NCBI GenBank assembly: GCA_022600535.1
Contig: JAHZKE010000053.1
Coordinates: forward strand, 1-37,872
Direction: 5' to 3'
DNA from: Pseudomonadota bacterium
GTDB lineage: Bacteria > Pseudomonadota > Gammaproteobacteria > Tethybacterales > Persebacteraceae
Length of the DNA: 37,872 bases
Within the stretch, counting starts at the first letter, position 1; the number at the start of each line of letters is the position of its first letter. The notes beneath the pieces are model-generated. The model did not search any database and was not told the origin of the DNA. It was given only the letters and a program-made list of their open reading frames with translations. Below, piece by piece: positions 13,263 through 31,847 of the stretch. A program made the position numbers and the translations under genes.

Positions 13263-13551
13263 CTATATTTAAAAAGGTAATGCCTAATAATGATTTTTAA
13301 ACTATTGCAAACGATATGATTATTACGGGCAATAAAAAAAGATGTTACGTCTATAAAAAATATTTAAGTCGTATTTATTGATTGCTTAGAAATTTATAAA
13401 TGTTAAAAGTAAAGTACACCTATTTTCTTTATGTGCAGACATACTACTTTAAATATCTTATTAATCTACCTCACTTGCTCTAAACTGCAAGAGCCTGAAA
13501 CCAAAGCACTAATACAAAGTAACGCTAAAATACGGCGAGTGTGAAATATCA

Positions 13552-13574
13552 TAAAATTATAGTACGCTGATATT
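13552..13574. repeat. Left copy of the 23-bp imperfect direct repeat bounding the hsd/SIR2-HerA cassette
   Basis: taaaattatagtacgctgatatt; matches 23523..23545 at 21/23 positions, same orientation. Confidence 0.75.
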
Positions 13575-13612: not shown

Positions 13613-16600
13613 TTATTGATTATCCCCGCTATAAGTTAGATCAAAAACAGTATCGTGCATCCACCGCTTAAATCCTTCGTTGTCCATGAACTGCTTAAAC
13701 AATTCAGTGTCATCTTGCATAATGGAAGTCATGGCTCGCACAAGGGCTTTGTCATGTTCAATGCGGGCGTTCTGCTTATCCGAATTTGCTTGGGCATTTT
13801 GGTATGCCGTATCTTGCGCAACGCGGGCGGGAATCGTCTCGGTAATGAGTAGCCGTACACGGTCAGCATCTCTCCAGGGGATACCTCCAAAATGATGATT
13901 AAATACTTTTAGAATATTTGATAGTAAATCTAATTCTGGCTCTGCACGCGCTCCGCCTGCATCAACGGGAACGGGCTCTATTTCTGCTTCTTCATCAGGA
14001 AGTTGAATTTTCTGGATTTCTTTTTTCTCTGCCCGATAACTATCCATGTCTATGGCATCCAAAATACCTCTAGATAGGTCTTCCTCTGCCGGCGCGGGTA
14101 GTTTAGTAACCAGAAAGCTCAAAAATATAGAACGCTTTTCCCATGCGGCATTGCTGTAGGGCAACACCATAGACAAAAAGTTATAAATGCGCACAAAACC
14201 CTTACACTTACCTTTAAAATCTACCTGTCCATCTTCGTCCAAATTGTTTATATAGTTTGCCACACAGACATCTAAAATCGGGTCTAGTTGGTCACGCTCG
14301 GCATTGCCAAGATAGAGATTTATAAAGTTATCTATCTGCTCTGGCGAATACACCTGTGCACCATCTAAATCTGATTGCATATCGTGCAGCTTGTTGGGGT
14401 CGGTCTCATCGGCAAGAATAGTCGCGCGATAATAATCAGCAAAGGACTCGCGAATCGTCTCAATCTCATTCAAAAAATCAAGCACGAAAACATCATATTT
14501 CTTTGGGCAGGCACGGTTTAACCGCGACAACGTTTGCACCGCCTTAATACCCGACAGTTCTTTATCCACATACATAGTATGCAACAGTGGCTCATCGTAA
14601 CCGGTCTGAAACTTATCGGCACAAATTAAAAAACGATAAGGGTCTTCCTGAAATTTATCGGCAATCCTGCCCGAGGGGAAGCCATTAAGTGATGCCTCGC
14701 TCACCTTCTGCCCACCAAATTCATGCTCGCCTGAAAAAGCAACAATAGCACGGCACTCACTCTTACGCTCTTGCAGATAGGCATTAAATGCGTGATAGTA
14801 TTGGATAGCTCGCTCAATGCCGTTGGTGACCACCATTGCCCGCGCCTGCCCGCCAATTTTATGCTTCGCCAATACTTGGCTATGAAAATGATCCAACATA
14901 ATCTCCGCCTTTAGGCGAATCGCATACTCATGCCCTTCTACATAGCGACGCAGTTTTTTTTGCGCCTTTTTAACATCAAATTTCGGGTCGTCCTCAACCG
15001 CCTTTGCCAGTTTGTAGTAGCTCTTCACTGGGGTGTAGTATGCCAGCACATCTAAGATAAACCCTTCTTCAATGGCCTGTTTCATAGAATAAGTATGGAA
15101 GGCATAATGCTTAACTGTGCTGTCTGCCTGCTGCGCTTTCCTTCCAAATATTTCCAGCGTCTTATTCTTCGGTGTGGCAGTAAAGGCAAAATAGCTGGCA
15201 TTCGGCAATAATTTACGCGATTCCATCAAGCGATTAATGTGATCTTCAGCGGTTTCGTCCTCACCGGCAACATTTGCTTCGGCAAATGTCCGTGCCATTG
15301 CCGCACTGGTTTTGCCACCTTGACTGGAATGCGCCTCATCAATGATAATAGCAAAGGTACGTTCTCGCTGCAAGTCACCAATCTCCTGCAAAATAAACGG
15401 GAACTTCTGTACGGTAGAAATAATAATTTTCTTACCATCTTCAATAAACTTTCTCAAATCGCTTGAATCCTCGGCATGCCCCACCGTTGCACCAACCTGT
15501 GCAAATAATTTAATGGTATCGCAAATTTGTTTATCCAGAATGCGGCGGTCAGTAACTACTATAATTGAATCAAATATATAGGCGTTATTTTTCTTTAACC
15601 CAATTAATTGGTGGGCAAGCCAAGCGATAGAGTTGGATTTACCACTACCGGCAGAATGCTGAATCAAGTAGCGTTCACCTACCCCTTGTGCCGCCGCATC
15701 AGCGAGCAAACACCGCACGACATCAATCTGGTGATAGCGCGGCCAAATTTGGGTCTTTTTCTTTTTGCCCGTTTTCTTGTTTTTCACTTCTACAATTTGG
15801 GCGTAGTTTTCAATAATATTGGTCAAACTTTCGCGAGTCAGCACCTCGCGCCATAGATAATCCACTTTAAAACCGTTTGGATTAGGCGGATTACCAGCAC
15901 CATCGTTCCAACCTTTATTAAATGGCAAAAACCACGATGCTTTGCCTTGCAAATGTGTGCAAAATTGCACTTCACTCTCATCCACCGCAAAATGGGCGAT
16001 ACAGCGACCAAATTCAAACAGCTTTTCACGCGGGTTGCGGTCTGCTTTATACTGCCCAACAGCATCGCTCACCGTTTGCTTGGTAAGATTGTTTTTTAAC
16101 TCAAAAGTGAACACTGGCAAGCCATTAATAAACAGCCCCATATCTAAAGCGCGCCCAGTCTCATTAATACTGTATTTGAGCTGGCGGGTAACGCTAAAGC
16201 GGTTTTGTTCAAAAAGTGCTTTGGCTTTTTCGTTTTCTGCTGATGGCGTGCCATAGAAAAGGTCAATAGCGTGCGCTCCATGCTTGATACCATCTCGTAG
16301 CACATCTATGCTGCCGCGCTTACTGATTTCGCTCTGCAACCGCGCCAGAAATTTTTGCCGTATCGGGCTATCTTTATTTAGCATCAGCGATTCCGCCACA
16401 TTGGGCTGAGTTATCTGCAAAAAAGCAGCCAGTTGCACCAGATCTATGCAGTACTCACGATTGTAATCGTGAGGATTACCACCACTCCAACCAACGCCGC
16501 CATAGGTGGCAGGAGGTGCACTAACCGAACCCGTCGAAGGTGGGTCGCAAGGATGACCAGCGAGAACGGTGCAAATTAATTTTTCTAAGCCACGTTCGGT

Positions 16601-16633
16601 GGTATCTGTTACCTTTGTTTTCATATCGTTCAT
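13613..16633 (-). CDS. hsdR: Type I restriction enzyme R subunit
   Basis: FTFELKNNLTKQTVSDAVGQY nuclease region, HSAGSGKSNSIAWLAH Walker A, IIDEAHSSQGG DEAH, AFTATPKNKT; ATGA overlap with hsdS. Confidence 0.95.
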   Translation of the reverse strand: MNDMKTKVTDTTERGLEKLICTVLAGHPCDPPSTGSVSAPPATYGGVGWSGGNPHDYNREYCIDLVQLAAFLQITQPNVAESLMLNKDSPIRQKFLARLQSEISKRGSIDVLRDGIKHGAHAIDLFYGTPSAENEKAKALFEQNRFSVTRQLKYSINETGRALDMGLFINGLPVFTFELKNNLTKQTVSDAVGQYKADRNPREKLFEFGRCIAHFAVDESEVQFCTHLQGKASWFLPFNKGWNDGAGNPPNPNGFKVDYLWREVLTRESLTNIIENYAQIVEVKNKKTGKKKKTQIWPRYHQIDVVRCLLADAAAQGVGERYLIQHSAGSGKSNSIAWLAHQLIGLKKNNAYIFDSIIVVTDRRILDKQICDTIKLFAQVGATVGHAEDSSDLRKFIEDGKKIIISTVQKFPFILQEIGDLQRERTFAIIIDEAHSSQGGKTSAAMARTFAEANVAGEDETAEDHINRLMESRKLLPNASYFAFTATPKNKTLEIFGRKAQQADSTVKHYAFHTYSMKQAIEEGFILDVLAYYTPVKSYYKLAKAVEDDPKFDVKKAQKKLRRYVEGHEYAIRLKAEIMLDHFHSQVLAKHKIGGQARAMVVTNGIERAIQYYHAFNAYLQERKSECRAIVAFSGEHEFGGQKVSEASLNGFPSGRIADKFQEDPYRFLICADKFQTGYDEPLLHTMYVDKELSGIKAVQTLSRLNRACPKKYDVFVLDFLNEIETIRESFADYYRATILADETDPNKLHDMQSDLDGAQVYSPEQIDNFINLYLGNAERDQLDPILDVCVANYINNLDEDGQVDFKGKCKGFVRIYNFLSMVLPYSNAAWEKRSIFLSFLVTKLPAPAEEDLSRGILDAIDMDSYRAEKKEIQKIQLPDEEAEIEPVPVDAGGARAEPELDLLSNILKVFNHHFGGIPWRDADRVRLLITETIPARVAQDTAYQNAQANSDKQNARIEHDKALVRAMTSIMQDDTELFKQFMDNEGFKRWMHDTVFDLTYSGDNQ

Positions 16634-18000
16634 ATCGTTTGTTCCATACTACCATTAACCAGCGAATCAACCTCGGGGAGAGAAGCTGCTGCATCGCGCA
16701 CATCTAACTTACCGGTAACCACATCGGCGATTAATCGGGTTTGGTATTCGTTAAGCAATTTTATCTCATGATTGGCGCGGGAAATTGTGGAGTCAATGTT
16801 GGCGGTGGTTTTTTCGAGATATTCGACAATGGCGGTTTGTTCGGGGAGAGGCGGGAGAGGCATCCATGCAGACTTGATTCCCGAGTGAGAGAGTCCATAA
16901 CGAGTAACTCCTTTCGCTTCTACATGAAATTGATATGCCAAACCTTTGCTTTGAAGCGCTCGTAGCAAATATCCACCTTTCAATTTATCCTGAAATGGTT
17001 TCAGTATCGCCAAGTGATAGCCAGAAATCAAATCCTCTGCTACCTCTGTTACAAGCGCAGGAACTCCTATGTCGTCCCATGCCTCGGAATCCTTAGTGAT
17101 TAGCACATCGTCTATCTCAAGCATGAATCGTTCGATTTCATTATAGGTGGCTGTCGCATGCATGAACTTCATGCGTTTGTTAATATAGTCGTTTTTATAT
17201 ACATCTACGTAATTGCAAAGCCGAACTGGCTGCTCACCTTCCTTTGTGTGCTTATCTACATTGCTTACTCGCATTTCTGCAATAGTGCGAATTCGCCTCA
17301 CCTCCCAATGTGCTGGCACTTCACCCAACCACTCGACACCTGAATCTTTTAGTGGCACATCAGGGTCAAGCCCGCGGGTGACAGCGTGGTGAATGATGGC
17401 TTTCTTCTGCTCGGTTAACAACGCGATTAACTTGCGTTTTATCTGCACCAAACGCTGCACCCGCTTATCAACATAATCCAAATATTTAACAATCGCGGTT
17501 TGTTCTGGGAGGGGTGGGAGAGGGAGGCGTGAACGACGCAGTTTTTCATAGTCAACATTCTGACCCTCACGAATACCCGTTACATAAAAACCGAGATTTT
17601 CGATATAAGGTTTGGACTTAAATAATTGTGCTAGAAAACCATGATTGCGTTGATTACTCGAAAATAGAACTGTATAGGCTGGGCTGATGATTCCTTGCAC
17701 TCTGGCAAACTCGATACCACCTTGAAACGATCGTAAACTAATAACAAAATCTCCAACCTCCACTAACTTCAACAGGTGGAGATCCTTTAATGCAAGAACT
17801 GTCCTATTCTCGTATTGATCCTTTCTGACCACACCTTTGGTCTGTGTTGCTGCAAGCAATGGTTTGTCTGGAAATCCCTTTTCGCTTCGCTCGCAAAGTA
17901 TCGTTTTGATTCTCGGAAGTTCCCAATGTGCAGGCACGTCTCCCAACCACTCAACGCCGGAGTTTATCATTCTGGGATAGGGCTTAATCTCGGCAATCAT
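16630..18000 (-). CDS. hsdS: Type I restriction specificity subunit with two target-recognition domains
   Basis: Duplicated NSGVEWLGDVPAHWELPRIKTI / DSGVEWLGEVPAHWEVRRIRTI and LPPLPEQTAIVKYL / LPPLPEQTAIVEYL. Confidence 0.95.
   Translation of the reverse strand: MIAEIKPYPRMINSGVEWLGDVPAHWELPRIKTILCERSEKGFPDKPLLAATQTKGVVRKDQYENRTVLALKDLHLLKLVEVGDFVISLRSFQGGIEFARVQGIISPAYTVLFSSNQRNHGFLAQLFKSKPYIENLGFYVTGIREGQNVDYEKLRRSRLPLPPLPEQTAIVKYLDYVDKRVQRLVQIKRKLIALLTEQKKAIIHHAVTRGLDPDVPLKDSGVEWLGEVPAHWEVRRIRTIAEMRVSNVDKHTKEGEQPVRLCNYVDVYKNDYINKRMKFMHATATYNEIERFMLEIDDVLITKDSEAWDDIGVPALVTEVAEDLISGYHLAILKPFQDKLKGGYLLRALQSKGLAYQFHVEAKGVTRYGLSHSGIKSAWMPLPPLPEQTAIVEYLEKTTANIDSTISRANHEIKLLNEYQTRLIADVVTGKLDVRDAAASLPEVDSLVNGSMEQTI
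16826..16860 (-). repeat. hsdS internal repeat (second LPPLPEQTAIV block)
   Basis: acaatggcggtttgttcggggagaggcgggagagg, near-identical to 17489..17523. Confidence 0.85.
17489..17523 (-). repeat. hsdS internal repeat (first LPPLPEQTAIV block)
   Basis: acaatcgcggtttgttctgggaggggtgggagagg, near-identical to 16826..16860. Confidence 0.85.
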
Positions 18001-20108
18001 ACTTCTGCCTCTTCGTCTTTAACACTAACATCCTGCCACTCCTCTGCGATAGGCTTCCAATTCGCATCACGAGATACTGGCTTCTTGTTTTCGTCTTTGC
18101 CAACCCACACATCCCAAAAATCAGGGTCATCGGAGCGGGGTTGATGGATTTTCGGTAAGTCATTCATTTTTACTAACACCGGAAGCTCAGACGCCCACCC
18201 AAGCAGGACAGCTTTCTGTGAAGGCAACGATGGCAGTTCACGAAGTAATCCCCTGAGATTATCGGGTAGCAGGCGGCGCACTAGCTCCTGGTCCCTATCA
18301 TTGCTTAAGCGGTGGAGGAGAAAAGAGTTGCACTGAGCAAGAACTGTAGGTGATAACTCTGATGGTCTTTGGGAAGAAATAATCAAACCTAAGCCGAATT
18401 TCCTACCTTCACGTGCAATTTTCTCAAATATCTGACAACAGATTCCAGCCGCATCTTGGTTCTCCACATCCTCCTTATAGCGCTTGATGAACGTATGAGC
18501 TTCTTCCATCACTAACACTGTAGGCAATACCTCTTTATTTATCCTGCGGTAGCGCTGGAGGGCTTCAAAGGTAATGCGAGCAATCACTGCCGTAACAACA
18601 TGTACAACCTCGGCAGGAACAAGAGACAGATCAATCACGGATACGCAACCCTCTTCCGCATTATCACTCCCGATGTAATCTTGAAGCCAGCTTTCAAATA
18701 ATGTGTCCTCGGAGTCAGATATGATTGAGCGCATCCTGGAATCTGCCAAAAACGTACGTATTCGAGAAACAAGAAAATCCAAATATTGACTAACATTCTC
18801 TTGCTCTGCCAGTATTTCAAGATGATCTGCCAAATCACTACCTCTGAAATGTAACGGAACGTCCTCATCAGGACCATCCTGAAAGACAATGCCACCAAAG
18901 GTTTCTAGGGATTTGTTCAATGCATCTACTATTTTTTCAATCTCCTGATCGGTAAACGCACGATAGTATTTAACAAGTTTCTCATCATTGTCTTTGAATT
19001 CATTAAATCTAGCATTAAGCGCTTCCCCAGTAACGTCTATTACTTCTTGTAGATAATTATCTTGAAAATCAACGATATTCTCCTTGAGATTGCTAACCAT
19101 GGCTTCCATGCTAAATCCAAAACCGCTACAGGACTTACCCCTAATCGCACCTGAACGCAAATCACGTCGAATAGAGATCAGATAGGAAGAAAGCCGGCGC
19201 CGCATCTTCATCTTTTTCTCCTCATCCGTGGGAGCAGCGATACTCGTCCGCCCCGCCTTCACTTCGCGCAATGCCCGCCGAAGCAATGGCCGCTGCGTTT
19301 TTGCACTTGCCTGCGTAAAAGAACACCATTCCGCACTATTCCAAAACCAAAGCGGCACCTTTAACGGAAGCTCACCTTCTTCTGGATCCACCCTAAAGAT
19401 ACGCGCTTTAACCGTTGAATCTTCACCTGAAAATGCCCGCGAATACTCTCCGTTTGGATCAAGCACAATAAATCGGGCATTGGGCACGCTCTCACCTTCC
19501 GACTTTGCCTGTTCTAAACTCCAGCGAATCAATCCGGCGACGGAACAGGATTTCCCACTGCCTGTATTGCCAAGAACAGCAAGATGTCTCCCAAATAATC
19601 GATTCGGATCTACGCACACCTTTGCATCACCTGCCAATGGGCTAATACCAATATGAACTCGTCTTTTTTCTCCTGACTCGACAATTGACCGCAATTGCGT
19701 ATCCGTAGGTAATAGCACGGCAACCCCCACCGAAGGCAATGCATCGCTACCACGCCTAAAGACAATACCCTTATTATCCGAAAGAACATGCAATGTGCCC
19801 AATGGAGTAAGACTCAATCGGCGCAATGGATAAGGTAAATCTATGAGTCCAAAATCCTGCATTCCCCGTCGTTTAGGAAAAGGAGATCGCTCAACCGTTA
19901 TCCACTCAACTTGACCAACGAGATGTCCGTCATCAACCGGAATGAGTACATAGCCATTCACCCGAGGGAATGGTCGGGGACCTCCAGTATTCAGGGCAAC
20001 TGATTCTGGCGCTTCAATGTCAAGACCTACCTTAATTTCGTCCGGCGAAACGAAATCCACAGTGCCTATTCGGAGGTTTCCTGCCTGCTCAAAGGGAGTT
20101 TGGCTCAC
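17997..20108 (-). CDS. herA: HerA/DUF87-family ATPase/translocase (703 aa)
   Basis: N-terminal HAS-barrel-like region, LAVLGNTGSGKSCSVAGLIRW Walker A, IVLDPNGEYSRAF, TVLVMEEAHTFI Walker B, ISSQRPSELSPTVLAQCNSFLLHR; GTG start inside a GTGA overlap. Confidence 0.92.
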   Translation of the reverse strand: MSQTPFEQAGNLRIGTVDFVSPDEIKVGLDIEAPESVALNTGGPRPFPRVNGYVLIPVDDGHLVGQVEWITVERSPFPKRRGMQDFGLIDLPYPLRRLSLTPLGTLHVLSDNKGIVFRRGSDALPSVGVAVLLPTDTQLRSIVESGEKRRVHIGISPLAGDAKVCVDPNRLFGRHLAVLGNTGSGKSCSVAGLIRWSLEQAKSEGESVPNARFIVLDPNGEYSRAFSGEDSTVKARIFRVDPEEGELPLKVPLWFWNSAEWCSFTQASAKTQRPLLRRALREVKAGRTSIAAPTDEEKKMKMRRRLSSYLISIRRDLRSGAIRGKSCSGFGFSMEAMVSNLKENIVDFQDNYLQEVIDVTGEALNARFNEFKDNDEKLVKYYRAFTDQEIEKIVDALNKSLETFGGIVFQDGPDEDVPLHFRGSDLADHLEILAEQENVSQYLDFLVSRIRTFLADSRMRSIISDSEDTLFESWLQDYIGSDNAEEGCVSVIDLSLVPAEVVHVVTAVIARITFEALQRYRRINKEVLPTVLVMEEAHTFIKRYKEDVENQDAAGICCQIFEKIAREGRKFGLGLIISSQRPSELSPTVLAQCNSFLLHRLSNDRDQELVRRLLPDNLRGLLRELPSLPSQKAVLLGWASELPVLVKMNDLPKIHQPRSDDPDFWDVWVGKDENKKPVSRDANWKPIAEEWQDVSVKDEEAEV

Positions 20109-21526
20109 GAAGTGCCCCCTCCTTTTTCTTTTGCATCAACCCCTGCACTATCAAGTGTTTCCCTACCTTCGCCGGTTGTCCACCTAGCCTTCAAAAGTTC
20201 AGCCATCCGAAATGTAGTCCGGTCTATCGCCGACTTCGGCAAATAATGATCAACCAATGTCTTCATATCACCAAGGTGATCGCCTATCAAAAGCGTGATC
20301 TGAGCAGGGCGCCCCAGTTCATCGTAAGTGCTCATGATTCTACCAAGCGGATCGTCACGCGATATTACGACCAAGTGAGTCGATGGAATTGTCAACATAT
20401 CTTTGAGCACCCGGTTAATGTGTTCATCGCCAAATGCATAGCCGTAGCAAATTATGGTGCTGTTCGGTCTACAGATTGCAGCAGCTAAGTCGCGAAACAA
20501 ATCGACATAGGGTTGCGATGCAGTTTCTCTGTCCTTGGCGGCGTTTGGATATATCATCAGCCGCAATGCGTCAGTACCTTCTACGCCCGCATCGGCAAGG
20601 TAAGGTTCGGTAGATTTCGCGCCAAACGGAATCCCGAGTCGGCGGATAGAGTGCTTGCAGTCAAACCAGTCAATAGAACCATGCAATTTTGTAAAACGGG
20701 CAACTCCCTCTAAGTAGCGTGGTTCGCCGCGGATTCCCGGAGGGTTGTAATGAAAATCAACGTCTAACCGTGATGAGCGAAATATCGGCGACAAAGTACC
20801 TACGAACCTATCCATTAGTCGCAACCCTGCAATATCCGCGCTAGCTTCAATCGTTCGGTCGTAGTTCGTGGTAAAAATATGTAAGCGCTCACGAGTCCCT
20901 GACCGGCTCGCAAAGCTCATGAGAAAACTTACGAGGTAATTAAATGATTCTTCACGCTTTAAAGCGTCTGCCGAAATGAGTTCTTGCTCTCCTTTAAGGA
21001 TGGATTTGGCGAATTGACTGAGAACGTTGTTCAAATCATTTTGAAGTTCAGAAACAATCTTTCTCCACTTTGTGCCTTCTTTCTTAGTCAATGCAATAAT
21101 TTCAGCACCCCGAAGAATCTCATTGGCAGCACGAATTGTGTCCTCTATGTTTCCACTATTGCGCCTGGCAGCTATTGCTGCTCGATTTGCCTCCGCTATA
21201 ATTTGATCGTTTAGAGTTTTAAAGAGAATCGCGTCCATCCCGGGACCTGGCTTACTCCTAGCTATCCCATGTGCAGCGTGTGTCAGACCCGACCCTACCA
21301 GCAATGAAAGGTTTTCGGATTGAACGAGCGCTGTAAGCCATGGTTCAATTCTTGGTCGCAATGTTTCCGTACCGAAGGCACCGGTGGTTTTTGCCCAAGA
21401 ACAAGTCGCACCCTCGGCAAGTTTAAAATCCTTGCCTGGTTCATCACTTACGCGCACAAAATATACTGGATTTTTGTCATCGCGCGTTTTGAGTATTTGT
21501 TTTGTACCAGCAGATCTTTGTGTCAT
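20105..21526 (-). CDS. SIR2-like domain protein (473 aa), putative NADase defence effector
   Basis: LSLLVGSGLTHAAHG glycine-rich NAD-binding loop, HIFTTNYDRTIE, FTKLHGSIDWF, IICYGYAFGDEHINRVLKDML: motif order of prokaryotic defence SIR2 proteins. Confidence 0.88.
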   Translation of the reverse strand: MTQRSAGTKQILKTRDDKNPVYFVRVSDEPGKDFKLAEGATCSWAKTTGAFGTETLRPRIEPWLTALVQSENLSLLVGSGLTHAAHGIARSKPGPGMDAILFKTLNDQIIAEANRAAIAARRNSGNIEDTIRAANEILRGAEIIALTKKEGTKWRKIVSELQNDLNNVLSQFAKSILKGEQELISADALKREESFNYLVSFLMSFASRSGTRERLHIFTTNYDRTIEASADIAGLRLMDRFVGTLSPIFRSSRLDVDFHYNPPGIRGEPRYLEGVARFTKLHGSIDWFDCKHSIRRLGIPFGAKSTEPYLADAGVEGTDALRLMIYPNAAKDRETASQPYVDLFRDLAAAICRPNSTIICYGYAFGDEHINRVLKDMLTIPSTHLVVISRDDPLGRIMSTYDELGRPAQITLLIGDHLGDMKTLVDHYLPKSAIDRTTFRMAELLKARWTTGEGRETLDSAGVDAKEKGGGTS

Positions 21527-23478
21527 GTTGTACTCCTATTTATAATCTCACCCAACAAACCTTCTGTCTCTTGTTCCAGTGCCAAAATATCGGCGCGGAT
21601 TTCCCCAAGATTGCGCATTGGCTGCGGCTTATAAAAATAACGGGTAAAACTGATTTCATAGCCGATTTTAACGTTGTCTTTTTGATACCAAGCATCGGTA
21701 GCATACGGCAATACTTCACGCTGCAAAAATGCTTCTATACCGCCTTTTTCCTGTAATGGAATTTGCTCACTATCACGCAGGTCGCTATCGGGTTCGTATT
21801 CAACCACCGCGGGCTTACCGTTTATATCTACGGCAAACAGCCCCTGTAGTGGATCTGCCTTAACGCCTTTTTTATGGATACTCTTTATCACTGGCGCAGC
21901 GGTGTTGTTGCGGATTCCGGTTTCTTTCAATGCTTTAATTTCTTTTGGCTTGTAGACACGGTGAGGGTCGATGCCTTCAATGCGTAGCGGTCTGTCAACG
22001 ATCACTTTCCAATAGCCAAAATCGGCGTTGTTAAATATCTTAGATTGCTCTGTTTGTTCAAAGTTAATAAAAGTATCGCTAATTCGCTGAATGTCGGCTT
22101 CGCCGAGCTCACAATTTTTTTTGCCGAGATTTTTACGCAAGAGTTGGTACCATTGGCTGGCATCTATTAACTGTACCTTGCCACGGCGATGTGCGGGCTT
22201 GCGGTTAGTTAACACCCATATATAGGTGGCAATGCCCGTGTTATAAAACATATTTAGCGGCAGGGCGACAATGGCTTCTAACCAGTCATTCTCTATAATC
22301 CAACGGCGGATGTTGCTCTCGCCTTGGCCGGCATCGCCGGTAAACAACGAGCTGCCATTGTGCACTTCGGCAATACGGCTGCCCATTGGAGTGTTTTGCT
22401 TCATCTTAGAAAGCATATTAACCAAAAACAGCATCTGCCCGTCACTTGAGCGCGTTACCAATGAATATTTAGGATCACCGTTATGCTTAATTATAAAACG
22501 TGGGTCGCGCATGTCTTTTTTGCCGCCCATTTGCTCCAATTCTCCATTCCAACTTTTACCATAGGGGGGATTAGCAAGCATAAAATCAAATTCATGGCCG
22601 GGAAAAGCATCTGCCGAGAGGGTGGAGTGCTCGGGACCGCCAATGATATTATCCGCCGCATCTCCCCCACCTTTCAGCAATAAGTCCGCCTTGCAGATAG
22701 CATAGGTCTCGGCGTTGATTTCCTGACCATAGAGGTGGGTTGCCACTTGCTTGCCGTGCTCGGTAGCAATCTGCTGCAATGTTTCTTCGGCAACGGTGAG
22801 CATCCCTCCGGTACCACAGGCGCCATCGTACAGCAGATAAGTGCCCGATTGTATTTGCTTAGCAATTGGCAAGAACATAAGATTAGTCATCAGTTTAACC
22901 GCATCGCGCGGTGTCCAGTGTTCCCCCGCTTCTTCGTTATTACCCTCGTTAAACTTGCGGACTAACTCCTCAAAAATTGAGCCCATGCCGTGGTTATCCA
23001 AACCAGTAGGGCTAAGGTCAATGTCAACTGAGGTGAGCTTTTCAATTAACTTGCCTAAGACATCTGCCCTAGACAACCGTGGAATTTGGTTACGAAACTC
23101 AAAATTATCAAGGATGTCTTGCACATTGGGGGAAAAACCATCAAGGTAGGCTTCAAAGTCCGCCTTAAGTTGTTGGCGGTTGGTGCGTGATCTAAGATCG
23201 CGCATGGTGAACTTGGATGTGTTGTAGAACGCCTGATTAGCAGCCTGACGTAAGGCGGCGTCCTGCTCGACCAATTTCATGCTATCAAGGGATGCCTTCA
23301 TCTCTATGACCTTCTGCTTGCTGTCTTCCAGCACAGCGTCCAACCGGCGTAACACCGTCATGGGCAGGATGACATCCCGATATTTACCGCGCACGTAGAC
23401 ATCTCGCAAAACATCGTCGGCGATACCCCAAATATAACCCGTTATCCAGTTGGGATGGTTGGATTGATTTTGTCTCAC
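21523..23478 (-). CDS. hsdM: Type I DNA N6-adenine methyltransferase M subunit
   Basis: GSIFEELVRKFNEGNNEEAGEHWTPRDAVKLM, YDGACGTGGML, ANPPYGKSW (NPPY); GTG start preceded by AAGGAG. Confidence 0.95.
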   Translation of the reverse strand: MRQNQSNHPNWITGYIWGIADDVLRDVYVRGKYRDVILPMTVLRRLDAVLEDSKQKVIEMKASLDSMKLVEQDAALRQAANQAFYNTSKFTMRDLRSRTNRQQLKADFEAYLDGFSPNVQDILDNFEFRNQIPRLSRADVLGKLIEKLTSVDIDLSPTGLDNHGMGSIFEELVRKFNEGNNEEAGEHWTPRDAVKLMTNLMFLPIAKQIQSGTYLLYDGACGTGGMLTVAEETLQQIATEHGKQVATHLYGQEINAETYAICKADLLLKGGGDAADNIIGGPEHSTLSADAFPGHEFDFMLANPPYGKSWNGELEQMGGKKDMRDPRFIIKHNGDPKYSLVTRSSDGQMLFLVNMLSKMKQNTPMGSRIAEVHNGSSLFTGDAGQGESNIRRWIIENDWLEAIVALPLNMFYNTGIATYIWVLTNRKPAHRRGKVQLIDASQWYQLLRKNLGKKNCELGEADIQRISDTFINFEQTEQSKIFNNADFGYWKVIVDRPLRIEGIDPHRVYKPKEIKALKETGIRNNTAAPVIKSIHKKGVKADPLQGLFAVDINGKPAVVEYEPDSDLRDSEQIPLQEKGGIEAFLQREVLPYATDAWYQKDNVKIGYEISFTRYFYKPQPMRNLGEIRADILALEQETEGLLGEIINRSTT

Positions 23479-23522
23479 GCCGTTCTCTCCTTACTGTACT
23501 TTTTAACCATTTAACAACCCAG

Positions 23523-23545
23523 TAAAATTATAACACGCTGATATT
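23523..23545. repeat. Right copy of the 23-bp imperfect direct repeat
   Basis: taaaattataacacgctgatatt; see 13552..13574. Confidence 0.75.
23527..23535 (-). promoter_or_regulatory. Extended -10 promoter-like element (TGTTATAAT) for the hsdM-led operon
   Basis: On the minus strand reads TGT-TATAAT, about 49 nt upstream of the hsdM GTG; no good -35. Confidence 0.55.
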
Positions 23546-23573
23546 TTATTATTATTGCTCGCTTTTTAAGATT

Positions 23574-23777
23574 GCGATGTGTTGGAGTATGAATATTTTT
23601 CACTGGGTATCTTTTTTGTGTGCTATGTTCTCTTTTGTGTCAACAATTTTATTGTAATACCAATCGGCTAAAAATAAAAATGCGGACTTTTTCCGCCAAA
23701 GTAAAAGGGTCTGGATTGTAACTGTGTTTTGGTAAAGGCGGTTTACCTGCACTCGTTTCCCAATGCTTGATGCGCTA
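23574..23777 (-). pseudogene. Degraded duplicate of the FAD-oxidoreductase 3' end / GATase1 5' end junction
   Basis: 204 nt aligning to 26031..26234 (roughly 90% identity by eye), same orientation. Premature stop (AHQALGNECR*) and single-base indels break both frames. Confidence 0.9.
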
Positions 23778-23847
23778 AATTTATTTAATGGCTAACTTGC
23801 AATATTTTCACGGTTTCAATGTTTTTTCTGTTCCCATTATCATCTAT

Positions 23848-25263
23848 TTATTCCTGCTTCGCTTCTGCTGCTGCTCCAATCTCTGTTACTGCATCGTAGG
23901 ATTCAATTGCCAACTCTACATATTGCCATATAAAGTTAAAAAATGATTGTTCCTCGGCACCGTATTCTTTCAGTACATTCGCGGTCTGGATATTATTAGA
24001 TTTGTTGGCGGCATCTAATGGTGTGCCGAAAATAAAAGAAACAGCATTAATATCAGCTCCGTTTTCTATCAGAAGTTTTGTTATGGCAGCGTTGCCATAA
24101 AAAGCAGCGTTGTGTAGTGGAGTATCTCCTCCCATTGAAGAACTCATGGAAGAAAAAGCAGCGTCCATAGCAGCATCCGCAGTTTCCTCACCTAATTCAG
24201 CATCTAATTTATCTAACTCGGCAGCCAATTCAGCATCTAACTCTGTTAACTCAAGTTTCAATTCGGGAGACAATGTAGGCAGGAGGTTATCTATAGCGTT
24301 AACATCTGCGCCGTTTTCTAACAATACTTTGGCGGTTGCTACCGCGCTGTGCGTTGCGGCTTCGTGTAGCGCGCCTTCAACTTTAGCTCCGTGTTGTATC
24401 AACATTCTGGCGGCGGCGGCATGATCTCCCAATGTTGTTTGGTGCAATGGGGTCCCGCTAAATTCTCCTTGGGCTTCAACATTTGCACCATTTTCTAACA
24501 GAAGTTTAATCAAGGCAACATTGCCACCCAATGCTGCTGTGAACAATGGCGTTTCTTTTTTGTCATCCAGTACTTCAACATCTGCACCGTGATTAATTAA
24601 AATGGCGGCAATTTCATGATTCCCCTGCTGCGCTGCTAATAAAAGCGGGGCTAGCCCTATACCACTTCGCGCATTAACATCAGCTCCTGCTACTAATAAA
24701 CGCAGTACTTCGGCGCTATCATTTTCAGATACCGCATTGTGTAACGGCGAGATATTGTTATCGTATCCCGCTGGTACTGTGCTCCCTGCATCTAATAAAA
24801 CTTGTGCGATTTTTCCATAGCCGTATTCTTCTGCTGTATCTAATGCCCGTTCATTGTAACCGTTTTTAATGTTGACATCCGCACCGGAATCAATTAATAA
24901 TTGCACCATTGCTAAGTTACCTTCGCCAGCGGCAATGTGTAATGGGGTGCCATAAAAATCCCCCGCGGGTTGCGCGTTGATTGGTGCGCCGTTTTCTAAT
25001 AACAACTGCGCGACTGCAATTTGATTATGGCTCACCGCTACATGTAACGGCATCCAATTATTATGCCATTTTGTATTAACAATTGCGGCGGTATCTTTTT
25101 GCAAATAATACTGCACCGCGAGAACATCTCCCTGGGTAACGGCTTGCCTAAAATTGATTGTTGGGGGTTCTTGCTCCGCCCAAGCAAAATGGAAAGATAA
25201 GGAAAAAAGACAAGCAACGCTAACTATTAAACTACGTGTTAGAGAAGTGGCTAAGGTTTGCAT
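23848..25263 (-). CDS. Ankyrin-repeat protein with N-terminal signal peptide
   Basis: SLIVSVACLFSLSFHFAWA signal-like segment, many G(A/H)GADVN / TPLHxAA repeats, with an acidic 11-residue repeat insert (LDAELAAELDK LDAELGEETAD). Confidence 0.9.
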   Translation of the reverse strand: MQTLATSLTRSLIVSVACLFSLSFHFAWAEQEPPTINFRQAVTQGDVLAVQYYLQKDTAAIVNTKWHNNWMPLHVAVSHNQIAVAQLLLENGAPINAQPAGDFYGTPLHIAAGEGNLAMVQLLIDSGADVNIKNGYNERALDTAEEYGYGKIAQVLLDAGSTVPAGYDNNISPLHNAVSENDSAEVLRLLVAGADVNARSGIGLAPLLLAAQQGNHEIAAILINHGADVEVLDDKKETPLFTAALGGNVALIKLLLENGANVEAQGEFSGTPLHQTTLGDHAAAARMLIQHGAKVEGALHEAATHSAVATAKVLLENGADVNAIDNLLPTLSPELKLELTELDAELAAELDKLDAELGEETADAAMDAAFSSMSSSMGGDTPLHNAAFYGNAAITKLLIENGADINAVSFIFGTPLDAANKSNNIQTANVLKEYGAEEQSFFNFIWQYVELAIESYDAVTEIGAAAEAKQE

Positions 25264-25321: not shown

Positions 25322-26059
25322 TTAGCTTTTGCTGGTGTTTGCTAATAACTGTTTAAATCCATTATACAGTAGCGCGGCATGGTGATTCATCGCGCTCATG
25401 TGTTGTTTGGCTTGGGTGTCAAATTCGTTTAAAGCGTTTGCGCCCAGTGTGTTTTCCAGTGCTTGTTTGTATTCGGCAATATCCCCCCAATCCTGCACGG
25501 TTGTTGGTCGTACTTCTATATGAAATTGAATGCCGTAGGCGTGTTTTTTGTAGCGGAATATTTGATAACGTGTTACCGGGGAATGCCCTAACACTGTTAC
25601 TTCGGGGGTGTTATCTAAACCGCAAACTTCGTATGAATGCCATTGCACCGATTTAATAACCTCGGGAAATTTTTCAAAGAGTAAATCGTTTTTTCTGTCG
25701 TTAGATAAGTTAACATCTAAAACACCAATTTCTGATGGATTGGATTGCACGACTTGACCGCCGACTGCTTCCCCCAACAACTGCGCCCCGAGGCAAAACC
25801 CTATAAAGGGTTTTTCTAATGTTTTTACATAATGTTTAATTTTTTCTTTTTCTTGCACCAACCATGGATATTCTTCTTCCATCCACGTATCCATTGGCCC
25901 ACCCATGCACAACATGCCATCAAAATCGTCAAGGTTTTCGGGGATTGTTTCGCCTTGGTCTAATTCAATCGTTACCAATTCAAAGTTATCGGCTAACATT
26001 AAATCTTTTAGAGTGCCCGGGTCTTCTATGGCGATGTGCTGGAGTACGAGTATTTTCAC
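25322..26059 (-). CDS. Class I glutamine amidotransferase (GATase1)-like protein
   Basis: FIGFCLGAQLLGEAVGG nucleophile Cys, YGIQFHIEV His-Glu; GTG start overlapping the upstream stop (GTGA). Confidence 0.85.
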   Translation of the reverse strand: MKILVLQHIAIEDPGTLKDLMLADNFELVTIELDQGETIPENLDDFDGMLCMGGPMDTWMEEEYPWLVQEKEKIKHYVKTLEKPFIGFCLGAQLLGEAVGGQVVQSNPSEIGVLDVNLSNDRKNDLLFEKFPEVIKSVQWHSYEVCGLDNTPEVTVLGHSPVTRYQIFRYKKHAYGIQFHIEVRPTTVQDWGDIAEYKQALENTLGANALNEFDTQAKQHMSAMNHHAALLYNGFKQLLANTSKS

Positions 26060-26234
26060 TGGGTATCTTTTTTGTGTGCTCTATTTTCTTTTGTGTCAAC
26101 TATTTTATTGTAATACCAATCGGCTAAAAATAAAAATGCGGGCTTTTTTCCGCCAAAATAAAAGGGTCTGGATTGTAACTGTGTTTTGGTAAAGGCAGTT
26201 TGTCCGCGCTCGTCTCCCAATGCTTGATGCGCTA
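26031..26234 (-). repeat. Intact copy of the duplicated gene-junction segment (partner of 23574..23777)
   Basis: Direct comparison of the two 204-nt segments. Confidence 0.9.
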
Positions 26235-27392: not shown

Positions 27393-29765
27393 TTATGCGG
27401 TTGGTGGATAATTGCCTTTAACGCGTTCTTTCTTTGGGTCAAAGTGTGGGAATGCGGTAATGGTGGCACTTAGGCGTTTTTGCTGACCATCTAATTGCCC
27501 GACTTCAATGTTCGTGCCAATTTGAGCGTGGGCAACATCTACCCGTGCGAGGGCGATGGTTTTTCCAAGTATGGGGGATTTGGTGGCAGAGGTTATTTCG
27601 CCTACTTGTGCACGACCAACGCGAAGACAATCGCCGTTGGCTGGCACAATGCCGCTTTCAATGTTTAGCCCAACCAATTGCCGTTGTGGATGGGCTTTGC
27701 GTTCTTCTAATACGCTACGCCCGACAAAGTCATCGTTGGTGCTTTTTAGCGCAACAGTAAAACCAATGCCGGCTTCATACGGATTGGTTTGGTCGCAAAA
27801 TTCATAGCCGGCAAATATTAATCCGGCTTCTATGCGCAACATGTCTAATGCGGCTAATCCTAATGGGGCGATGCCGTAGGGCTCGCCAGCAGTCCATACG
27901 GCGTTAAAAAAGGTTTCGGCATCGTTGGGGTGGCAAAATAATTCATATCCTAATTCGCCGGAATATCCCGTGCGGCTCACAACGCAAGCGGGTCCGTTAA
28001 AATCATGTAAGCGCGCCACGGTAAAACGAAACCATGGGAGTTCTTCAATGGTTGCGCGTTGTGGGGGAGTCCATAAAAATTGTTTGAGGATTTCACGCGA
28101 GCGCGGCCCTTGTATTGCAATGTTACAGAGTTGGTCGGTAGCGTTACGTACCCATGCTTGATAGCCGCGCGCTTGCGCTTGTTCGCGTAGCCACAAGCCG
28201 CTGGTGTCGTTACCGCCAATCCAACGGTAGTTATTTTCGCCTAAGCGATAAATGGTGCCGTCGTCTATCATGCCGCCGTGTTCGTAACACATTGCGGTGT
28301 AGACGACTTGCCCGTCGCTTAATTTTTTAACATCGCGGGTGGCGCACCATTGCATTAATTCGCCGGCGTCTGGTCCTGTTATTTCATATTTGCGTAAGGG
28401 GGATAAATCCATTACTGCTGCCTGCTCACGACATGCCCAATACTCAGCAATCGCGCCTTTGTTGGTCATGGTTGTTGCTAACCAATAGCCGTTGTATTCG
28501 GCAAAGTCGCGCGTGTGGCGCGCAAAGCATTTATGAAAACCGGTTTCTTTTGTTTCTTGCATATCGTCCTCTGCTGTTTTTCGCCAAGCAATGGCGCGGT
28601 TAAAGTTTTCTTGTTGGCGGTAGACGCGTACTTGTATGTCGGTCGGGTTCCAACCATTTGCCGGGTCAATGTCGCACGGGCAAGCGGTAGAAACGCAAAT
28701 GAGATCGGTTAATGCGCGCAATAAAACATAATCCCCCGGGCGTGACCAAGGGTCGTCCATGCCAATGGCGTGAGTATCATCTAACAGGGTGTTGAAGAAA
28801 AAATTGATTGCCGCCCATCCCCCGCGCGGGCGAACATTAAATTGTTCTAAATCGGCATTAATGTTATCGGTGCAATTAACGTGCCCGAGGTAGCCCATGT
28901 CTTCATAATAACGTGCGGTGCAAGCGGAGCCAAAGGTATCGTGTCTGCCGCAGGTGTCTTGCACAATTTCTATTAAGGGTTCGTGATCGGTACTAAAATA
29001 TTTTGCAAAAATCCCCGGTTGCGGATATAAAGTGCCCGTCAGAGAGCGCGTTGCGGCAACATCTATCTCGCGTTCTATCCCCTTATCTAATGCGCGTAAC
29101 GAGAGTGCTTGAAAATCCGAACACTCGCGCCCTTGCACGTCTTGTATTTGTATGTATTGCCCAGCTGCAACTTGATATGCTTTTGCTGCTCCGGGGAGTA
29201 GATTGAAATCTTGCACAGGGTCGGCTAAGGGAGCGGGGGGGTTTAATTTTTCACTCGCGGCAAGGGCGGCGGCGCGGCGGATATACAACACGATGTCGGT
29301 TAAGGTTTCCTGCGTATCGGGTTGCATGGCGCTACCTAATGCACAAACAATTAGTAAGCCGTCGTTTGCTGCGGTTAAGGTTTGGCTCTCCCCCGCTTGC
29401 GAACCTTCGGCAAATAAACGAATCACATCGGCGCGGGCAAGGTCAAAACCGCCGCTTGCTAATGCCGCCAATACTTTCTGCCCGCTGCGGCTATTGGCTA
29501 ATACATTTTGTATTGCGCTTGCTGTGCGCCCGCCGCGGGTGCCCAACATTGCGGCATCCGACAAACCGTTGGGGGCAAAAAATATTAATTCGGCGGGTTG
29601 CAGTCCTTCGCGGTCAACGATTGTTATTTCATCGCCGTTGTGGATTTCTACCGCTCGCGAACCGCCGCCGCTAATCGGATAGCGTTCTACTCCCGCCGGC
29701 AATACGGGCAACCCCGGCGTAACGACCCCGCGTTGTTGGTAAGGGGTGGCAAATACATCAGACAT
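27393..29765 (-). CDS. DUF1989-like/DUF1989-GcvT fusion protein (790 aa), full-length paralogue of 2..2245
   Basis: AYQVAAGQYIQIQDVQGRECSDFQAL...GHVNCTDNI; GcvT part YWACREQAAVMDLSPLRKYEITG...SRTGYSGELGYELF; extra N-terminal block AVEIHNGDEITIVDREGLQPAELIFFA. Confidence 0.9.
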   Translation of the reverse strand: MSDVFATPYQQRGVVTPGLPVLPAGVERYPISGGGSRAVEIHNGDEITIVDREGLQPAELIFFAPNGLSDAAMLGTRGGRTASAIQNVLANSRSGQKVLAALASGGFDLARADVIRLFAEGSQAGESQTLTAANDGLLIVCALGSAMQPDTQETLTDIVLYIRRAAALAASEKLNPPAPLADPVQDFNLLPGAAKAYQVAAGQYIQIQDVQGRECSDFQALSLRALDKGIEREIDVAATRSLTGTLYPQPGIFAKYFSTDHEPLIEIVQDTCGRHDTFGSACTARYYEDMGYLGHVNCTDNINADLEQFNVRPRGGWAAINFFFNTLLDDTHAIGMDDPWSRPGDYVLLRALTDLICVSTACPCDIDPANGWNPTDIQVRVYRQQENFNRAIAWRKTAEDDMQETKETGFHKCFARHTRDFAEYNGYWLATTMTNKGAIAEYWACREQAAVMDLSPLRKYEITGPDAGELMQWCATRDVKKLSDGQVVYTAMCYEHGGMIDDGTIYRLGENNYRWIGGNDTSGLWLREQAQARGYQAWVRNATDQLCNIAIQGPRSREILKQFLWTPPQRATIEELPWFRFTVARLHDFNGPACVVSRTGYSGELGYELFCHPNDAETFFNAVWTAGEPYGIAPLGLAALDMLRIEAGLIFAGYEFCDQTNPYEAGIGFTVALKSTNDDFVGRSVLEERKAHPQRQLVGLNIESGIVPANGDCLRVGRAQVGEITSATKSPILGKTIALARVDVAHAQIGTNIEVGQLDGQQKRLSATITAFPHFDPKKERVKGNYPPTA

Positions 29766-29786: not shown

Positions 29787-31847
29787 TTAAGCCAAGCCCA
29801 AAATTGCGCGGCGTTTTTTCGCCCATGTTTGAATTAAATGGTCTACTGCCAAGCCGATAAAAGCAACGCACAAACCCAAAATTAACCCGTTGCCGATTCC
29901 GTTTTTGTCGGATAATGCTTTTAATATTAATTGCCCTAAGTCATCGGTGCCAATCATCGCGCCGATAATCACCATAAACAACGCGAAAATAACGGTTTGA
30001 TTAAATCCTAACATGATGTGCGGAAATGCCAACGGTAATTCAATCTTTAACCATCTTTGCAGTTTGGTCACGCCCGACATGGTGCCGGCATCCTGCAGGG
30101 AGGGCGGCACATTGCGTAGCCCTTCAACAGTGTAGCGGGTGGCGGGAATGGTGGCATAAACAATGACGGCGATAATCACCGAGGTATCGGTAACGCCAAA
30201 CAACATAATGACTGGTATCAGATAAATAAACGAGGGAAAGGTTTGGAAGGTGTCGCAAATTAATAAAACGGTGCGGCTGGCGCGTTCGTTTTGTGCTGCC
30301 AACGAACCGACGACAACCCCGATGATGACGGAAATAATGACAGAAAAAGAAGCGATGTAAGCGGTGATCAGCGCCCGATCCCACCACTCGGTGAGGGCAA
30401 TAAATAACAAAAATGCGCCGACCACTAAGGCAGAGCGAATGCCGCCAATGAGATAACCGACCCCCATCGCCAATACAAATGTTGCCGCAACGGGCATACC
30501 GAGGTATGCTTCTTTCATCGGGATGAGTACATTAACAATTAATCCTTTATTAAAAACTTGCAATCCTTGGTGCCAGTTATCTACCATCCAATCTACACCG
30601 GCTTGCCAAAAGTTTTCAGTGGTAATGCCTTTGTTGTGTTCAATCAGATAAAAATAATTAACGCCGTCTTTAAAAATAAAACTGCCGATATAAGCCAAGA
30701 GCGAACCCGCAATTAACGCCCCACCGATTAATAAAGAATATTTATAACGTTGCATAAAATTAGAATTGGCAAAATAATCAATCGGCTTGTGCGCCCATGC
30801 CAATGATAATTTATCTAACACGACGGCAATCAATACAATACAAATGCCTAACTCTAATGCTTGCCCGATGCGCAACTGATTGAGTGCGAGCAGCAGGTTA
30901 TACCCTAACCCTTTTGCACCGATAAAGGAAGCAATCACTGCCATTGCCAAACATTGCATGATGACTTGATTAACGCCGATTAAAATATCGCGCCGTGCGG
31001 TCGGCAACAGTACTTTAAATAATAATTGAAAATTATTACAACCGCTCATCATGCCGGCTTCGCCCACTTCTGGTGGTACGCGTTTAATTCCTAACAATGT
31101 TAAGCGCACCATTGGCGGCGTAGCAAAAATAATGGTGGCGATTGCACCGGCGTGGTCGCCGACGCCAAACAATACGGTTACCGGCACCAGATAAGAAAAA
31201 TGCGGCATGGTTTGCGCCACGTTCAACAGCGGAGTAAGGGCAACTTCTACCGCCCGTTTACGATATGCCCAAACGCCTAATGCTAAACCCAACAAAACCG
31301 ATACGGGAGCGGCAATCAATACAAATGACAAGGTTTCCATAGAGGGCACCCACTGCCCGAAAACTGCAATATAAATAACGGCGAAGGCGACTAATGTTGC
31401 TAACCCTTTGCCTTTAAGGGCATATCCTAAAATCACCGCGGCGGCGGCAACGACTGTCCACGGTAATGCCGGCCAATACGCCCATTTATTATCGCGGACA
31501 AAATCCCAACTGGTGAAGGCGACAATTGTTTTTTTACCGCCTAAAAATATTTCGCGAATTAAGTCAATGCAAAATAGCAACGCGCCGGAAAAGCTTCGCG
31601 TTACTTCTTTTAATAGCGGCGATTTTTCATACTCTTCAATATCGGGGTCGTAGATATCAATCGGCAACCATTGAAACATTAAAAACTCTACCGCTTGATT
31701 CAACAATATCGGCGCACTTGCCAATAACGGCGGTAAGCGCCAGAGGATATTCCCTTCTGTTGGTGTTACCGTGAAATACAAGAGAAAAAACACGGCTAAC
31801 AGCAGCATGAACTGCGTTAGTTTCGGCATGTTTTTAAATAGTAACAT
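29787..31847 (-). CDS. Glycine betaine/proline-type ABC transporter, fused tandem permease (686 aa)
   Basis: Two permease modules, each with an EAA-like loop (VPPEVGEAGMMSGCNNFQLLFKVLLPTARRDI; VPPSLQDAGTMSGVTKLQRWLKIELPLAFPHI). Confidence 0.9.
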   Translation of the reverse strand: MLLFKNMPKLTQFMLLLAVFFLLYFTVTPTEGNILWRLPPLLASAPILLNQAVEFLMFQWLPIDIYDPDIEEYEKSPLLKEVTRSFSGALLFCIDLIREIFLGGKKTIVAFTSWDFVRDNKWAYWPALPWTVVAAAAVILGYALKGKGLATLVAFAVIYIAVFGQWVPSMETLSFVLIAAPVSVLLGLALGVWAYRKRAVEVALTPLLNVAQTMPHFSYLVPVTVLFGVGDHAGAIATIIFATPPMVRLTLLGIKRVPPEVGEAGMMSGCNNFQLLFKVLLPTARRDILIGVNQVIMQCLAMAVIASFIGAKGLGYNLLLALNQLRIGQALELGICIVLIAVVLDKLSLAWAHKPIDYFANSNFMQRYKYSLLIGGALIAGSLLAYIGSFIFKDGVNYFYLIEHNKGITTENFWQAGVDWMVDNWHQGLQVFNKGLIVNVLIPMKEAYLGMPVAATFVLAMGVGYLIGGIRSALVVGAFLLFIALTEWWDRALITAYIASFSVIISVIIGVVVGSLAAQNERASRTVLLICDTFQTFPSFIYLIPVIMLFGVTDTSVIIAVIVYATIPATRYTVEGLRNVPPSLQDAGTMSGVTKLQRWLKIELPLAFPHIMLGFNQTVIFALFMVIIGAMIGTDDLGQLILKALSDKNGIGNGLILGLCVAFIGLAVDHLIQTWAKKRRAILGLA

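Follow-up and report, generated by a model that had tools for sequence, protein, structure and literature searches.

A degraded partial copy of a FADox-GATase gene junction beside a restriction-SIR2-HerA cassette

The window, which is the whole stretch of 37,872 nt of DNA that was analysed, contains a degraded partial copy of the junction between the genes for an FAD-dependent oxidoreductase (FADox) and a class-I glutamine amidotransferase (GATase). This copy very probably goes back to a partial duplication within the locus, formed after FADox had joined GATase in this lineage, and is now decaying. The features of the region are listed in Table 1.

Table 1. Features of the window around the copy and its source.
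Feature	Position	Strand	Remarks
Degraded partial copy	23571..23777	-	FADox codons 383-441, stop and ~32 nt of the GATase 5' end
Source segment, where the intact FADox 3' end overlaps the GATase 5' end	26028..26234	-	alignment and reading frames
FADox (DAO family), intact, 441 aa	26056..27381	-	Pfam PF01266, E 2e-56
GATase, intact, 245 aa	25322..26059	-	Pfam PF00117, E 1.5e-20; relatives align from residue 1
Ankyrin-repeat protein, 471 aa, between source and copy	23848..25263	-	Pfam Ank, E 2e-53
Cassette left direct repeat, 22 bp	13553..13574	+	imperfect repeat
Cassette right direct repeat, 22 bp	23524..23545	+	28 bp from the end of the copy (counted from 23574)
Type I restriction-modification operon with SIR2 and HerA genes between HsdM and HsdS	13613-23478	-	4-bp overlaps throughout
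Weak terminator-like hairpin inside the copy	23682..23696	-	consensus scan and fold energy

Local alignment matched a core of 207 bp between copy and source, both on the minus strand and in the same orientation. Identity was about 91%, and each of the two single-base indels lay within an A homopolymer. The alignment score was 322, while the highest score of 200 shuffles was 31. Exact stretches of 40 and 38 bp were common to both segments, and a looser alignment lengthened the match by 7 weak bases, to positions 23784 and 26241. An independent repeat finder returned the same pair with a spacing of 2456/2457 bases. When the whole genome (1.6 Mb, 116 contigs) was searched by blastn, the segment was present at two places only, the copy and the source (E 7e-79). 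These results agreed well with the original prediction, which had aligned positions 23574..23777 with 26031..26234 in the same orientation and had proposed a pairwise alignment as a check; its coordinates were right to within 3-7 bases. It had also correctly seen that the match spans the oxidoreductase 3' end and the GATase 5' end, that the copy lies between the ankyrin gene and the right repeat of the cassette, and that it carries a premature stop and indels.

The gene order on the minus strand is substrate-binding protein, ABC ATPase, fused permease, tdm, FADox and GATase, followed by the ankyrin-repeat protein, the copy and then the HsdM-SIR2-HerA-HsdS-HsdR cassette. The GTG start of GATase overlaps the TGA stop of FADox. 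The product of tdm was identified as TMAO demethylase by NCBIfam NF053776 (1192 bits versus a cut-off of 1100). The window encodes two TMAO-demethylase-like proteins in opposite orientation, one above this cut-off of 1100 (27393-29765, 1192.5 bits) and one below it (35-2245, 930.8 bits). The ABC permease encoded at 29787-31847 has 686 aa with two BPD_transp_1 domains and is apparently a fused duplication; similarly long permeases are present in the genomes G055 and G001.

Of FADox, the copy retains no more than the 59 C-terminal codons, without the start, and of GATase about 32 nt. A change from CAA to TAA introduces an in-frame stop at FADox codon 394, and one base is deleted at codon 411. 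At the GATase start one A is inserted, which leaves the overlapping GTG in place and shifts the frame at once. The stop and both frameshifts were confined to the copy, and the source was intact. The 12 substitutions in the FADox part, scored singly, comprised 6 synonymous, 5 missense and 1 nonsense change. When mutations were simulated at random under the same bias towards transitions, on average 3.7 changes were synonymous, with at least 6 in 12% of the runs (P 0.12), and a stop arose in 44% of the runs. The changes fit neutral, unselected decay, with few sites and low power in this comparison. The copy unites the features by which pseudogene fragments are recognized: significant similarity to an intact gene of the same genome, disabling changes together with incompleteness, and changes that are consistent with no coding constraint.

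The DNA of the segment had no match in 56 relatives, no match in plasmids and phages at blastn sensitivity, and no match in viral contigs as an exact 24-mer. No Rfam family came near its threshold for the segment. On these results a conserved RNA or regulatory element was rejected; the original prediction had named an element conserved independently of FADox in other genomes as the finding that would speak against it. A plasmid or phage (mobile) origin of the copy was rejected by the same searches of plasmids, phages, and viral contigs.

We compared the surroundings of GATase in relatives. The gene occurs family-wide, with 58% identity of the protein in G002 and 53% in G001, both aligned from residue 1, and in these two genomes of the same family GATase has no FADox beside it. 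The closest FADox homologues were 34-37% identical; the FADox search of genome contigs returned 28-34% identity, and among 369 genomes searched across the class none exceeded 37%. An intermediate of the duplication was not found in the FADox searches, including the class-wide one (369 genomes, best identity 37%). Neither FADox nor the ankyrin gene was found beside GATase in relatives. In G055, which belongs to another family of the same class, the genes for the substrate-binding protein, ATPase, permease, Tdm, GATase, and ammonium transporter (amt) are consecutive, and no FADox, ankyrin gene or cassette lies between tdm and amt. The 355-bp spacer between tdm and GATase of G055 contained no FADox remnant. 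The relatives compared are distant, and G055, whose GATase is only about 36% identical to that of the window, represents the ancestor only imperfectly.

Because GATase lacks an adjacent FADox in genomes of the same family, and tdm, GATase, and amt are neighbors without FADox in G055, the junction of FADox and GATase seems to be derived and lineage-specific. If the copied junction is lineage-specific, its lone copy must therefore be derived as well. The adjacency of tdm, GATase, and amt in G055, together with the absence of FADox beside GATase in genomes of the same family, likewise implies that the duplication postdates the joining of FADox to GATase. The locus of G055 on contig C68 as a whole has the order of transporter, tdm, GATase, and amt seen in the window, without FADox, ankyrin gene, and cassette. 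Its Tdm is 67% identical to that of the window, compared with 52-54% in genomes of the same family, and these identities suggest lateral exchange of the operon.

We infer the following order of events. First, FADox would have become the immediate upstream neighbor of GATase in this lineage. Then a segment reaching from near FADox codon 383 into GATase would have been duplicated on the far side of the ankyrin gene, about 2.46 kb downstream and in the same orientation. This may have happened in one step by dispersed duplication, with about 207 bp alone being copied. It may also have happened by tandem duplication from about FADox codon 383 to past the ankyrin gene, followed by deletion of the second GATase and ankyrin genes. 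Both routes would result in the same sequence and cannot be told apart. Lacking the FADox start, frameshifted and with a stop, the copy would then have gathered mutations as unselected sequence. The original prediction had assumed an ancient tandem duplication of the FADox-GATase(-ankyrin) block and had suggested a synteny comparison with relatives lacking the cassette and/or the ankyrin gene, to see whether a second complete FADox-GATase pair had existed. The degraded local duplicate of the junction was confirmed, but no remnant of a complete second block was found beside the cassette, and no relative examined had two FADox-GATase pairs.

As a special form of the tandem route, the second GATase, possibly with the ankyrin gene, could have been deleted when the restriction-SIR2-HerA cassette was inserted, as the original prediction had proposed. 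One duplication and one deletion would yield exactly the observed layout, and the truncated side of the copy is the cassette side. The cassette of about 10 kb is bounded by the 22-bp direct repeat AAAATTATA(GT/AC)ACGCTGATATT, which has two differences between its copies and could be a target-site duplication or an attachment site. Elsewhere in the genome this repeat was matched more weakly at two places, position 13028 of contig C1 (2 mismatches) and position 4196 of contig C63 (3 mismatches), and the reversed control had no genome match. The repeat is, however, present at both cassette ends, and the copy stops 28 bp outside it. No GATase or ankyrin remnant was found in the 289 bp beyond the left repeat (13263-13551) or in the 95 bp before HsdM (23479-23573), where alignment scores were the same as for shuffles. 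Since the copy ends outside the repeat and no such remnant lies beside the cassette, a link between truncation and the cassette was not supported, and we consider a deletion of this kind unlikely.

The copy could also be the leftover of a recombination with DNA of a diverged strain, which imported FADox, GATase, and the ankyrin gene, and a part of the 9% divergence would then be older than the event. The slight excess of synonymous changes (6/12) would also fit divergence that partly arose at a time when the two copies were coding sequences, for instance in a different strain, and the lack of FADox and the ankyrin gene next to GATase in relatives speaks in the same direction. The excess was not significant, however, and with 44% each the ankyrin gene and FADox had a base composition that is unremarkable for the window. 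We regard this origin as improbable. A recombination that brought in the ankyrin gene, also suggested by the original prediction, received no support from contig C58, on which no comparable gene-end duplication lies near other ankyrin genes; a general tie between ankyrin genes and gene-end duplications was therefore rejected.

The hairpin within the copy consists, on the sense strand (23696-23682), of a GC-rich stem of 5 bp followed by a T-rich tract, with a fold energy of -7.5 kcal/mol in the copy versus -6.5 in the source. Downstream of the ankyrin gene, the copy might have been retained as a transcription terminator that shields the cassette from read-through of the catabolic operon upstream; the indel together with a C>T change would then have strengthened a hairpin that was already latent in the coding sequence. 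Both the C>T change and the deletion of an A do tighten the stem, but the hairpin is already present in the source. Among 400 simulated decays, 8.75% gave a hairpin at least as good, and the 7 terminator-like sites of the region were not clearly above the 4.0 (sd 2.2) found in shuffles. Since the hairpin was not significant against simulated decay, we rejected a functional terminator, which is very improbable. An assembly misjoin within the contig is likewise very improbable: exact stretches of 40 and 38 bp are long enough to mislead a short-k assembly and the genome is in 116 contigs, but the two copies differ at about 9% of the positions, with disabling changes in one only, and the source is part of overlapping genes that are intact on both sides.

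We saw no good reason to assign a function to the copy, which probably has none and is an ordinary scar left by local duplication in the past. In itself it is of little importance, and for annotation no gene is to be called at this position. The region from GATase to the glutamine-synthetase and ammonium-transporter genes has accumulated the ankyrin gene, the duplicate, and the defence cassette in this lineage, with FADox just upstream, and the genes flanking this region are direct neighbors in G055. The number of ankyrin-repeat matches was 137 in G001 and 36 in G003, and there were none in G002, which belongs to the same family as G001.

A search of the literature found nothing specific to this arrangement. 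As in the att-type duplications of integrative elements, two direct copies of the FADox 3' end flank 2.46 kb of DNA with GATase and the ankyrin gene. Unlike in such duplications, the repeat continues into GATase, which is a family-wide gene and not the cargo of an element, and the DNA between the copies contains no integrase, only the GATase and ankyrin genes. The copy resembles bacterial pseudogene fragments and remnants of partial duplications, being a short direct copy of a gene end that lies near its source and carries a stop and frameshifts. It differs in comprising the ends of two adjacent genes, the 3' end of the first and the 5' end of the second. GATase and the ankyrin gene separate it from its source, and there is nothing unusual in its kind.
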